Below are positions 22,160-56,700 of a stretch of 64,000 bases of DNA, in pieces. The stretch covers positions 11,993,501-12,057,500 of the forward strand of contig CM049308.1 of the NCBI GenBank assembly GCA_026874595.1, read 5' to 3'. The notes under the pieces were generated by a model. It was not told the origin of the DNA. It searched no databases and saw nothing but the letters and a program-made list of their open reading frames with translations. Origin of the DNA: Sipunculus nudus (taxonomy: Eukaryota; Annelida; Sipuncula; Golfingiida; Sipunculidae). Every line of letters starts with the position of its first letter. Within the stretch, counting starts at the first letter, position 1. The position numbers and the translations under genes are program-made.

Positions 22160-23335
22160 AAGTTTTCTAGACTTCAGGACTTTTTTAAGGGGCGCTTTGA
22201 CCAAAAAGGGGTTCTGGTGCCCTTGTTCAGGGCTTTGGTTGAACCAGTGGTCAAACCAAGCTCAACCAAAAACGGTTGTTGGTTCTGCACTGACAGAAGG
22301 TTGGATTTTAGGCCTTCATACAAAATCACAGTTCCATGGCCAGTACATCTGTAGACATGGCCCCGGATAAAATACAAGTGTAATTGGGCATTGTGTGCAA
22401 ATGGGTTGAAACCAAGTTGCATCAGGGTAATGTTGCCTTGAAAAACATAAAACCACAACAAGCTTAATAGGGAAATTTGGATAAACCATCTCATTGTCGG
22501 TCTTGAAATCTGTTAACCAACTTTAAAAAAAAAAACAAGGGACCTACGGGTCACAGCACTCAGCTGTTATATATGATAAAAAAATATGATTTAGAAATGA
22601 GGCACATGCTGGTTTTGTGTGGTAATAAGTATAAGCTGTATTATGAGTTGTTGTTGTTTGGCTTATGTATGATTTTGATAGTACCTTAGGAGACAGAGAA
22701 GAGAATTGATTTCATTTATTTTATTAACAAATGGAGTACTATTGTCACACAGATTTTGACTTGGCCATATAACTTATAAGCAGAACATATAATATAAGAG
22801 TTTAACTATTTATTAAAAAAATTACAAATATTGTCCCAGATATTATTTTTATTAACAAGGCCTACAGGCCTAATGCGAACCTGTGCAAATGGATATACAC
22901 CTGGTATAACGCTTCAATGCTGAACCACTACTTTTCATATATAAGAACAATGCAAGTACTAAACATTTTGAACAATACACAAACATCACTGCTGAAATTC
23001 TGGCATGGGTGCACACAACACAAAAATTATTGTAGGTGGCACCACCAGTCTTGTATACGACAAAGCTATTTGACATGTATAAATATGCCCAATTTCAGGC
23101 TGATATATCAAATTCCTCCTTAGAATTAAGCAATACACTTTGCAGAAGTCATTGTAGATGGCGACACCTGTCTTGTGAACGAGAAAGCCATTAAAGACAC
23201 ATAGACAGGTCAGAATATCAGGCCTTGAGTCTGATGCACCGGGCTGACCAGGCTTTGCACTGAGTGAACTCTTGACCTGCACCTGGCTAGACTGAGTGAA
23301 CTTTTGACCTGTACTTGGCTGCACTGAATGAACAT

Positions 23336-23415
23336 GAGGTGATCACATGATACTCATGAGGTGATCACATGCTACCCATGAAATGATCACATGCTGCCCA
23401 TGAGGTGATCACATG
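23336..23415. repeat. Short tandem repeat with TGATCA palindromes
   Basis: Four copies of a ~26-28 bp unit (ATGAGGTGATCACATG plus a variable tail). The palindrome GTGATCAC/ATGATCAC lies in each. Confidence 0.85.
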
Positions 23416-24195
23416 CCTTGTTTTTGGCTGCACTGATTGAACTCTTGGCCTAAATCTGGCTGCACTGAATGAACTCTTGATCTGTTGCCAAATCTGAAAC
23501 AGTTGGCAGTTTCTCAACCTATTCAAGAAACATACACAATCTTGGCCTGTTACGTAACTCTGCTAAAATTTATCCAACACAAACCATTTGAACAAACTTG
23601 AGAAGGCTCGTCTCTGGGATCATTTCTGTAAATTATTGAACAATTTGGCTGGACTCTTTACAAGAAGAAGAAGTTTTTATCAGCTTTTTCCCTGTAAAAT
23701 CTAAGTAAATGCGATAGGGAAAATAAGCAGAATCCATCAACATTTGATATGTGACTGATAATTGCATAAAATTTGGGGATGGTAGCTCCTGCTATTCCTG
23801 AGAAATGATATGTAATATCATAAATCTACATTTTTAAAAGCTTTTAAAAAGCATTCTTGTCAATATTTTCCATAGATATTCTAAAATCTAAATGTCTAGA
23901 GGCATGATGTAATGGATGTTGATAAACTGGTGCTAGGCTAGATGTATCTGCTTCACACAGCTAACATATATGGTAAAATGACTCAATTCAATCTTTATAA
24001 TTCAGCCAAAATTCATTTTTTTGAACCATAAAAGACAATTATTATTAGAATGATTCAGGGAATTATTCTTGCAAAATATTAAACAAACTGGCCTCAGTAT
24101 CATCAGTCGAAAAACGTTTTGTAGGTTTATAACTCATATGGGAAAATACAGCAAAATGGCTTCCCATAACTCAGCCAAAAATCATTGAACCAAAA

Positions 24196-51900: not shown

Positions 51901-53706
51901 AGAACAAGAAAAAGAAGCCAGACTACAAACCGTATGACGAACCAGAGTATGATGAATATGGCATGGTGAGTCAGCAAGGAATTTGTTAAAAATGTGAAAC
52001 TCAGCATAAATGTACCTGGATTACAAATAGATAGAACATTGATATTTCTTTTAACTATTAGTCACAAGTTTTCAGGTTACAAGACATTGTTACTCTGTTA
52101 TTAAGGATAGGTATTGCTTTCCCTCTTTTAAGACAGTGATGTTATATTCACAGACCGTTGCTTTTGTTCATTGAAATTTGTATTTGATTGAAGACCTATA
52201 TAGTGCACACACCCAATACATATAACACAATTTCATATAAATAAATATAACATCACATCAAAACTTTTTAAGTACATTGGTATTTGTTTGAATTATAATT
52301 GTGAGAATTAAGCATTCCTTTTGCTGTAAATTATGCAATGAATACACCATTATGGAATCAATGCATATTTATTATTTATTATGTGATATAGTGATAACCT
52401 TTTTTATTCAATGATTTTCTGCATACTTTGACCATTTCCTAGTTTATCTTGTATCAGTAAAGCAGTTTAACTACTCGGTCAAAATTATATTTTCCTTTTT
52501 TCAACATCATAATAAAATTCCCATTTGTTTTTATTATTCATTATTTTTCCACTCTGTTATATCTGCACAATCACACATGCTGATAACTTAAGTCACCAGG
52601 ATGAGATGTTACACTTGTAGCTGAAGTCAACAGAAGTCCTTGACAAGTATGATGAGGAGATATATGGTCAGAAGAAGGAGTACATCGAGCTGGGATCTGG
52701 AGGCAAATACAATGCTGAGCACGAGCGGAGGATGCAGGACATCAAGAGAGAGATACGGCAGCAAGGAGTGAGTCCCCACTATCACTGTAGCCAACTTTAT
52801 CTGCTTTTACAGCAACACTCCATCTTTTATTAAGCCTCCTCCTCCCCTTATCTGGGTTTATTATTATTCTACATCCATATTTGAGTAACAGTTTTTGTGG
52901 GTGAACCTACTTACATCCCCCTGAGTGCAAAAAAAAATAAATTTAAAAAAATTGTTTTTCTTGAGCCTTTTTCTATTTGCGATTGATTATTCTCCAACAT
53001 GGCTGATTTTGAGAAGTTGACATTTGGGCACAGTATTAGTCCTAGGTCACAGATTTACATCTGACGTTTACGTCTGTATTAAAACTTATTAAAACACTTT
53101 GAAATGATAAACCTTGTGTGGAGGAGGTAGGATAATTTGTTTATGACATTCTGTTTAAAATTGGTCTGATATAGCTGAAAGCAGGACTGCTAGTTTTGTG
53201 GAAATTTCCACATTATTGTTCCATATTGATTATTTTACTGTGTGTGATATTAGCTCATATTATTTCGCATAAAGATGCTTAGATTTTGTAGCATGGCATT
53301 ACAAATACGTTTCTTTAATACCATCGTAAATCCTTGGAAAAAATTTCATTTTCATTTAATTATTTGAAAATTTCCTAGAAAATTTGATCATATACTTTGA
53401 AGTTGATAGAAAAAACAACACAGAAATTTGATAAGAAATTTTAAAATTTAAAGTCTATATAGCAACATATCTGTTTAGAGAGCCTGATGTGTTAATATTT
53501 TATTTTTCTTTTTTTTCAGCAAACCCTGGAGCTGCCTGCACCAGTCCTAGCAAATGAATTTTACTCAAATGAAGAAATGGTAAGTCTTGGAATTGATTCA
53601 TTGAAATTCAACACGAGGTTAATCTTGTGAGTCAGTAAATTATGATAGACTTTTTGTAATTTTGTTATCAGTCCAGATACATTTTATCAGTCAATGCTTG
53701 CATTTA

Positions 53707-53754
<48 letters not shown>

Positions 53755-56700
53755 ATACATTAATGATGTCATGGACCTTTTCGTAGAACTACAGTGCCTG
53801 TTTACATGTACCTTCTTTGTAAAAAAAAGAAGATATTTTATTACCTTAATGCTAACATTGTATTCTAGTACAGTTTTAAATAACCCTGGTTTCCACATGG
53901 GTGAGAGCTTAGTCCGTTTATTGTATTCCATCGATTTTATTACCTGTCAGGGTTCATGGTTGGATATGCTTTCTTGTTATGCTTATGTTCCACAGAAAAT
54001 GAATGAGGCTTACATGTACATATATTCTTATCCAACCCAGGTTTAATATAATATTATTTGATAATTAAAATATTGCTATGCTGTGATGTTATATTTCAAG
54101 CCCAATTTACTTTGCTGTGATGTTATATTTCAGGCCAGGTTTACTATGCTGTGATGTTATATTTCAGGCCAGGTTTACTTTGCTGTGATGTTATATTTCA
54201 GGCCAGGTTTACTTTGCTGTGATGTCATATTTCAGGCCAGGTTTACTATGCTGTGATGTTATATTTCAGGCCAGGTTTACCTCGCTGTGATGTTATATTT
54301 CAGGCCAGGTTTACTATGCTGTGATGTTATATTTCAGGCCAGGTTTACTATTCTGTGATGTTATATTTCAGGCCAGGTTTACCTTGCTGTGATGTTATAT
54401 TTCAGGCCAGGTTTACTATGCTGTGATGTTATATTTCAGGCCAGGTTTACCTTGCTGTGATGTTATATTTCAGGCCAGGTTTACCTTGCTGTGATGTTAT
54501 ATTTCAGGCCAGGTTTACTATGCTGTGATGTTATATTTCAGGCCAGGTTTACTATGCTGTGATGTTATATTTTAGGCCAGGTTTACCTTGCTGAGATGTT
54601 ATATTTCAGGCCAGGTTTACCTTGCTGTGATGTTATATTTCAGGCCAGGTTTACTATGCTGTGATGTTATATTTCAGGCCAGGTTTACCTTGCTGTGATG
54701 TTGTATTTCAGGCCAGGTTTACCTTGCTGTGATGTTATATTTCAGGCCAGGTTAACTTTGCTGTGATGTTATATTTCAGGCCAGGTTTACTATGCTATGA
54801 TGTTATATTTCAGGCCAGTACCTTTAAGAAAGTAAAGAAGAAGGTTCGCAAGATCAGGAAGAAACCTAAAGTTGTGAAAGCAGAAGATTTAATACCACTG
54901 AAGAGCAGTGGTGACGGCGGTGGTCAGGACTGGGGAACGCGAGGAGTCTACACCAGCAGTGGAGGGCAGGACTGGGACCTTGAAATGGCTAAAATGACGT
55001 AAGTAAAACCCAAGATTTCAGAATGATTATAATAATAATAATATTAATAATAATAATAATTTCCATTGAGACCACTAAATTGCTGAAATAACAAACATAG
55101 GCATTGAAAACACAGTGACTTAAATCATGTAAGTAGGTACTTTGACCTCCAATTGGCTAAAATGATTCAATCTTTGTAGTTGGACCAGAAAATGGCAAAA
55201 ATAACCTAGTAGGTACTGCTATCCCATGCATGGCTAGAATTACATGCAACTAGATATAGGGACTGAAATTATGTAAGTAGACACTTTGACCTCCAGCTGG
55301 CAGTTGGACCTAAAAAATGGCTAAAATAAATATCCAAGTAAGCACGGGGACCTTGAAATGGCTGAAGTGACATGAATAGATTCTGAGGGCCATCCAGGAA
55401 AAGTCTTTTATAATTAAAATGAATTGCACTTGTATGTCCATAGCTTGTGTACCTATGTGCTACACTAATGACAGATATTTGTATATCCTGTACACAACAG
55501 ATAAGGGTAACAGTTTTTCAGTCATTTAAGGCATTGCTACTAATCCATTTTTGGAAAATTTTCAAAAAGGACAAATTTCAAATATTTGTTACTTGTGTTG
55601 TCAGGTGATGTAACAAATTAAATAAAATGGTTGTTACAGAACTCCACTTGAGGAAGAGGCCCAAAACGAGGCTTTGCCAGAAGACGTGCAGGTGAAGCAG
55701 GAACCAGTGGAAACCCCAGCAGTGGACATCCCAGGGCTGGACATCACAGAGAAGACCAAGATGGAGGTAGATGAGGCAGAAGGTAGGTGCATTGATGTTG
55801 ATAAACAGTAGCAAGACTCTTGTTAACAGCATGTCCAAGTACTGAAAGCTCCATACCTTGACTTAATTACCTGTGCCTCCATATAAGACTTAATTAACTG
55901 TTCCAGCAAAGTTTCATGGAGGTTAATTATCAAGTCTGTCTGAGGTTTGTCAAGGCAGTGATATGTAGTGCTTCCTGCCAGGCTGTCATCCTTTTGTCCT
56001 GTTGGTATAATGGATGGTCATAGAACCATAAATTAGTTATGTAATTTAACTACAGGTAGCAGTATCTGTGCTAGAGCACCTGAGTGCATGCAGACCCTCT
56101 GCGTGATTTCAAGCATTTGTACACATAAACGCTGACAGACACTTTGAAATATGGTGCTTATAAAATAATATGCACAGATATGCCAGCATGGAAGTAACTT
56201 AGGTAGACTTTACCGTTCAGTGCATCTAGTTCTGAAGCTTTAACTTCTAGCTCATTCATTTTGCCTCCACCAATTATTAACTGGTGTATTTTTATAGATG
56301 AAGAGGAGGACCTGGGTCCAGTGGTAGATCTCAACAATGTGGATGTTGAAGAAGACGACGCAGGACTCGAGCTCCAGTCGTTTCTCACAGAGCGCATTAA
56401 AACCCAACAAAAGAAACAGTTACTTGCACCTGAAAATGTTGCTGTTAGCGTAGCACCTGACAGTGACGAAAACATGGAGGAAGACAAGGAGAAAGCTGGG
56501 GCATCCATAGCGTTTAACGCCACCTCAGAGTTCTGCCGCTCACTGGGGGATATTCCTACCTATGGGATGGCGGGTAACAGAGACGAAGAAAAGGAGGATA
56601 TGATGGTTTGTGATTTTCTGATCTAACAATATGTTTTGTATATCTCCTTGTGATACATTCTTCATGATTCAGTACAAATCACAAAACTCACTCATTACAT

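Follow-up and report, generated by a model that had tools for sequence, protein, structure and literature searches.

Exon-intron boundaries copied in tandem, in the manner of minisatellites, have been described in amphioxus under the name of "mirages", in the globin genes BflGb6 and BflGb9 and in Adh3 (PMC3087553). The BflGb6 array, of six units in one haplotype and three in another, consists of the 3' end of an intron together with the 5' part of an exon, and the results for Adh3 and from reverse transcription polymerase chain reaction were taken by the authors to suggest that regular splicing is undisturbed. In the lancelet gene PGBD5, repeats of 60 and 108 bp lie over splice sites in numbers that are unequal between two assemblies, and the authors, who name further lancelet cases, suggest that accurate splicing is kept (PMC3902484). 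On the donor side, a variable number tandem repeat (VNTR) in intron 18 of human ABCA7 has about 24 units of 25 bp, in which the first two bases of the unit are the real splice site and retention of one unit shifts the frame (PMC5954066). Internal tandem repeats at exon-intron boundaries in human segmental duplications also bear on splicing (PMC2812944). Here we describe an array of this already published kind, a boundary minisatellite, at the 3' end of an intron of SART1 in a 64,000-nt stretch of the Sipunculus nudus genome (contig CM049308.1, positions 11,993,501 to 12,057,500; hereafter the window). We consider it likely that this is a young minisatellite that arose by tandem duplication across the boundary, and that it is tolerated because the exon context favors the last acceptor.

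The joined exons match human SART1 (tri-snRNP-associated protein 1, where snRNP is small nuclear ribonucleoprotein; 5o9z_P; E 3.5e-58) as well as the Pfam family SART-1 (E 1.2e-29), which agrees with the identification made in an earlier note on this DNA. The protein encoded by the exon upstream of the array ends in EFYSNEEM at 53579, and the human protein reads EEMVTFKKTKRRVKKIRKK at the exon junction. As the earlier note had proposed, the true acceptor lies in the last unit, and the in-frame reading from it aligns with human SART1. This unit has two AGs, only the first of which keeps the frame; the second, 5 bases on, reads TAC CTT TAA. A branch-point candidate of the type TTTAC, expected by the note 20 to 25 nt before the AG, is indeed found ahead of the true acceptor, and this motif fits the branch-point consensus yUnAy. 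The exon behind the array occurs once in the genome by search, and no second gene copy or spliced retrocopy was found in the genome with either this exon alone or a 49-residue stretch across the junction.

Tandem Repeats Finder (TRF) reports a period of 34, 21.8 copies, 94% matches, and 0% indels at 54079-54818, and on the left the similarity extends to about 54076. A core 21-mer of the unit has 22 matches at no more than 3 mismatches, compared with 0 in 100 shuffles. The end of the array at 54818 lies 5 nt within the exon that starts at 54814; the unit thus contains both intron and exon bases, and the tandem repeat spans the exon-intron boundary as it does in a mirage. The splice signal is repeated as well, with the AG retained in 21 of the 22 units (20 decoys in units 2-21 and the real one) and replaced in unit 1 by CAA. 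The sequence TTATATTTCAG is present letter for letter in 18/22 units, and units 5, 15, and 19 carry one-base variants of it that retain the AG. The number of units and their uniform length therefore stand as first described, while the copies are near-identical rather than exact, and the word "exact" in the title of the earlier note was too strong. Positions of these features are collected in Table 1.

Table 1. Features of the SART1 locus and of the nearby donor-side array. Positions are those of the window unless a contig is given; exon numbers follow the earlier note.
Feature	Position	Strand	Remarks
SART1 exon upstream of array (exon 10)	53520..53579	+	Ends ATG|gtaagt; translation aligns with human SART1
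Intron holding array	53580..54813	+	1234 nt; would be 520 nt with a single 34-bp unit
Tandem array	54079..54818	+	22 units of 34 bp; from TRF and sequence
Unit 1	54079..54112	+	Diverged edge copy, CAA replacing CAG
Decoy acceptor AGs, 20	54132..54779	+	Spaced 34 nt apart, one in each of units 2-21, from AG 54132-54133 to AG 54778-54779
Candidate branch point of true acceptor, TTTAC	54786..54790	+	A lies 24 nt before final G of AG
True acceptor AG (unit 22)	54812..54813	+	In-frame reading aligned to human VTFKKTKRRVKKIRKK
SART1 exon behind array (exon 11)	54814..54998	+	185 nt; donor gtaagt
Purine-rich GAR-type stretch	54826..54864	+	Candidate exonic splicing enhancer; from motif count just behind true acceptor
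Apparent donor-side array	L005:5008-5192 = C3:12062508-12062692	minus	About 5 kb past window end, about 14 kb downstream of SART1 array

Within the array the interior is homogenized, with a mean identity of 95.0% among units 2-21, and the edge unit is diverged, with five private changes in unit 1. Against a simple homogenization pattern, neighboring units are no more similar than shuffled ones (P 0.86). Units at a lag of 3 are more similar (P 0.0155), but no higher-order periodicity is significant across the seven lags compared (0.10). These distinct single-base variants without significant periodic order argue against an assembly artefact in which the repeat number was collapsed or expanded, as do the 153 contigs of the genome, the longest seen of 111 Mb, which look like the product of long reads. 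Repeat number is a common assembly error, and the array is seen in a single assembly; the amphioxus authors also report one such array as apparently aberrantly assembled in a draft genome (PMC3087553). On balance we regard an artefact as very improbable.

The SART1 array is like the amphioxus mirages in that many units retain splice signals and edge units escape homogenization (PMC3087553). It differs from them in its gene and apparently in its animal, in a unit with few exon bases, and in being known here from the DNA of one assembly alone. Where BflGb6 has six and three units of 150-160 bp, SART1 has 22 units of 34 bp, a length that can be set beside the 10-72 bp of the Adh3 units (PMC3087553). 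PGBD5, again another gene, has 2 to 7 copies (PMC3902484). ABCA7 is the mirror image, with the array on the donor side and the real site first, while in SART1 it is on the acceptor side with the real site last (PMC5954066). The human boundary repeats came from a comparison of paralogues, some of them creating new introns, while for SART1 a single gene copy was found (PMC2812944). Among other invertebrates, an abalone TSSK1-like gene has a 27-bp minisatellite in intron 3 (PMC6905558) and earthworm metallothionein genes have minisatellites in the first intron (PMC12783039); the part of a C. elegans paper drawn on makes no mention of boundary arrays (PMC4039745). No case of a SART1 boundary minisatellite was found in the titles and abstract openings of the papers listed by searches of an open-access library, often a part of the matches.

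All 20 decoys read into early stops. The earlier note had placed the stop in the seventh codon from any upstream AG, which is true of 19 decoys (six codons read) and not of the one in unit 15, whose frame runs for 40 codons to a stop at codon 41 because unit 16 has TGCTGAG instead of TGCTGTG. Splicing to a decoy would lengthen the exon from 185 nt to between 219 and 865 nt. The units also contain the donor-like CAG|GTTTAC pointed out in the note. An acceptor matrix was built from the 10 other SART1 acceptors, which were themselves scored leave-one-out. The true site and 17/20 decoys alike score 5.6, with the remaining three decoys at 4.3 to 5.2, and the true site is mid-range among the other 10 acceptors (-1.4 to 8.7). 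Equal scores of the true site and most decoys mean that the last copy is not distinguished by its acceptor. Concealment of the decoys by RNA structure was considered and rejected, as the array and exon fold no better than shuffles (z -0.66; 7/20 shuffles as good).

What lies behind the acceptors is different. Behind the true AG, 11 GAR-type motifs fall within the first 60 nt of the exon, the highest count of the 11 SART1 exons scored, and 19/20 decoys are followed by 0; the exception is the last decoy, followed by 2, whose 60-base span runs into the exon. At least 11 such motifs follow 0.17% of the 3435 AG sites in the window. This contrast suggests that the exon behind the last acceptor, not the acceptor sequence, may mark the productive copy.

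The following history would account for these observations. A 34-bp segment made up of the 3' end of the SART1 intron and the first exon bases, at least GCCAG, would have been duplicated in tandem. Since the duplicated segment spans the boundary, upstream copies carry a module of branch point, tract, and AG like the real one, and productive splicing must use the last copy, the only one that continues in frame into the coding exon. The purine-rich exon start and the nearby donor of a 185-nt exon would then support the last module by exon definition, so that it wins often enough, while the decoys would be without such exon sequence and their exons overlong. Leaky use of decoys would give transcripts with early stops, probably cleared by nonsense-mediated decay. 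Most likely the array is neutral or mildly costly, and the number of units probably differs between individuals. This reading is supported by the fact that tandem arrays are ordinary in this genome and that boundary minisatellites have been published (PMC3087553, PMC3902484).

The segment that was duplicated may have been longer. After GCCAG the exon goes on with TACCTT, and the unit at this place reads GTTTACCTT, which matches once an in-frame gap of 3 nt is introduced; if this gap is allowed, the exon match of the unit may extend to 11 nt. The alignment suggests that the duplicated segment formerly reached deeper into the exon and that three bases were either lost from the last copy or acquired by the units.

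Several points weigh against the account in which exon context makes the array tolerable. The list of GAR motifs was picked after the exon had been seen, the exon start encodes a lysine-rich stretch, such that the purine enrichment need not have evolved for splicing, and the purine share of the exon, 0.67, is unexceptional against the 10 other SART1 exons (0.53 to 0.73); together these make the enhancer reading weak. The acceptor matrix, built on 10 introns, discriminates poorly: scores as high are reached by 235 of 3395 AGs in the window outside the array (6.9%), and in most units the second AG, 5 nt further along, comes to 5.2. The junction is one residue longer than in human SART1, and the ancestral acceptor is hence uncertain. 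Lastly, a duplicated strong 3' splice site has been reported to be doubly occupied and poorly spliced (PMC5389562), from which it follows that 21 modules may not be neutral.

The last of these points leads to the main rival of a tolerated minisatellite, which is that the array carries a mild cost. Assembly of several U2AF/U2 complexes along the ladder would delay or prevent removal of the intron, and SART1 output would fall with the number of units, with no regulatory adaptation involved. The globin substrate with the duplicated site, in which a competitor oligonucleotide raised splicing several-fold, shares with SART1 the arrangement of equal acceptors in cis, but it is engineered, has two sites, and was studied in vitro (PMC5389562). 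The ABCA7 repeat, on the donor side, is reported to affect splicing according to its length (PMC5954066). The lancelet boundary arrays are in contrast reported or inferred to be harmless to regular splicing (PMC3087553, PMC3902484). SART1, moreover, is single copy by search and presumably essential, and a strong cost would be selected against. We consider this rival unlikely, and still the one to be taken most seriously.

The earlier note saw in the array a ladder of acceptors, subject to scanning or competition, in the transcript of a splicing factor. If the ladder were a regulatory device, the decoys would compete with the true acceptor and set the share of SART1 transcripts that are unproductive, and this share would track splicing capacity, giving feedback on a splicing factor. 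Consistent with it are the early stops behind all 20 decoys, the match of the gene to a tri-snRNP protein, and the finding that two 3' splice sites can be occupied simultaneously, which inhibits splicing (PMC5389562). The pattern of mutation, however, lends it no support. Interior units have 7 singleton changes, 3 of them within the 11-nt acceptor core (11/34 positions) where 2.3 are expected (binomial P(<=3) 0.84; small numbers), so the core has no depletion of mutations. The probability that none of the interior changes strikes the AG is 0.65; survival of the AG is thus expected by chance and provides no evidence of selection maintaining it. With these few mutations there is no sign of selection retaining the decoys. 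Nor do the stops require an explanation, since a 34-bp unit that contains TGA makes them inevitable once it is duplicated. Boundary arrays are known in unrelated genes, with normal splicing reported for published ones (PMC3087553, PMC3902484), and the donor-side array nearby is probably a further example. Of the two papers listed by a literature search on SART1 and unproductive splicing, neither mentions them in its title or abstract. We therefore find the regulatory ladder unsupported and quite improbable. An elaboration of it, which we rate as the most remote of the readings considered, makes the ladder a sensor of spliceosome capacity. A shortage of tri-snRNP, with SART1, would let U2 complexes pile up on several modules and block or misdirect intron removal, or the reverse, and the unit number would set the gain of SART1 feedback, tunable by unequal crossing-over.

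Engineered two-site substrates, of which the globin construct is an example, have served to study the choice among equal 3' splice sites (PMC5389562). The SART1 array offers a natural gene with 21 nearly identical modules of branch point and AG that differ mainly in their downstream exon context. For that reason, models based on exon definition, scanning, and multiple occupancy predict different and countable outcomes at this locus, which is a natural 21-fold version of the duplicated acceptor that spliced poorly through double occupancy (PMC5389562). With this array, boundary minisatellites of the kind described in lancelets would extend to another animal, and what appears to be a second example, a donor-side one, lies nearby.

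The donor-side array has a 56-bp unit, the first copy of which is the apparent exon end CACCTGTACAG|GTAAGC. Beyond an open exon that ends YGSPVQ|gtaagc come three further copies of TCACCTGT(A/T)CAG|GTA at spacings of 56-57 bp. The arrangement resembles that of a boundary array whose first copy is the real site, in a predicted gene. The same NPMY motif recurs in a later open frame, and Pfam had no hit above cut-off in the exons next to the array, leaving the gene without a family match. By our estimate, 0.2 to 0.8 boundary arrays are expected from the roughly 25 boundaries inspected by eye at 1-3% array coverage, so that two are suggestive only.

Minisatellites with a period of 15-100 and 3 or more copies number 9 in 200 kb taken from 20 places of the genome (1.43 Gb in 153 contigs), where they cover 0.87% and one has at least 10 copies. 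In 84 kb of the window and its flanks there are 8 of this class, the SART1 array included, with a coverage of 3.1%. A scan of 287 kb for evenly spaced donor or acceptor motifs picked up the donor-side array and one of 17 bp in L007; that of SART1 was caught on the minus strand only, via AAGGTAA, the reverse of CCT-type units. The strict acceptor pattern missed the SART1 acceptors, and the scan is for this reason not a sensitive survey. A genome-wide triple-CAGGTRAG pattern matched at 1170 and 1204 places, and its reversed control at 943 and 323. The matches listed, which are the first ones and all on C1, belong to a few satellite families and are thus uninformative on exon boundaries. Two long arrays there, C1:62836-63964 and C1:2740396-2744939, are of 24- and 42-bp satellites whose units contain the strong donor-like CAGGTGAG.

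The possibility that the SART1 unit is a dispersed repeat was rejected, as the 706-base array matches only itself, in two pieces, and an array on C17 among the best candidates scored. The latter (L002:1488-1709) has 7.2 copies of a 31-bp unit and shares on its reverse strand the core TGTTATATTTCAGG with the SART1 unit, a likeness that we take as a chance resemblance.

Other repeats occur as well. At positions 3-473 of the window, on the minus strand, a 157-aa open frame runs off the edge and contains in-frame repeats of 23 residues, from 69-bp units at 1-245; this minisatellite is lysine-rich and coding-like. Pfam gave no match for it, and two other open frames in the window likewise had nothing above cut-off. 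Short arrays of related units occur in separate places, at 23258-23416 of the window, L015:5108-5222, and L004:1387-1473, with units of 22 bp shared by the window and L015 and units of 32 bp by the window and L004.
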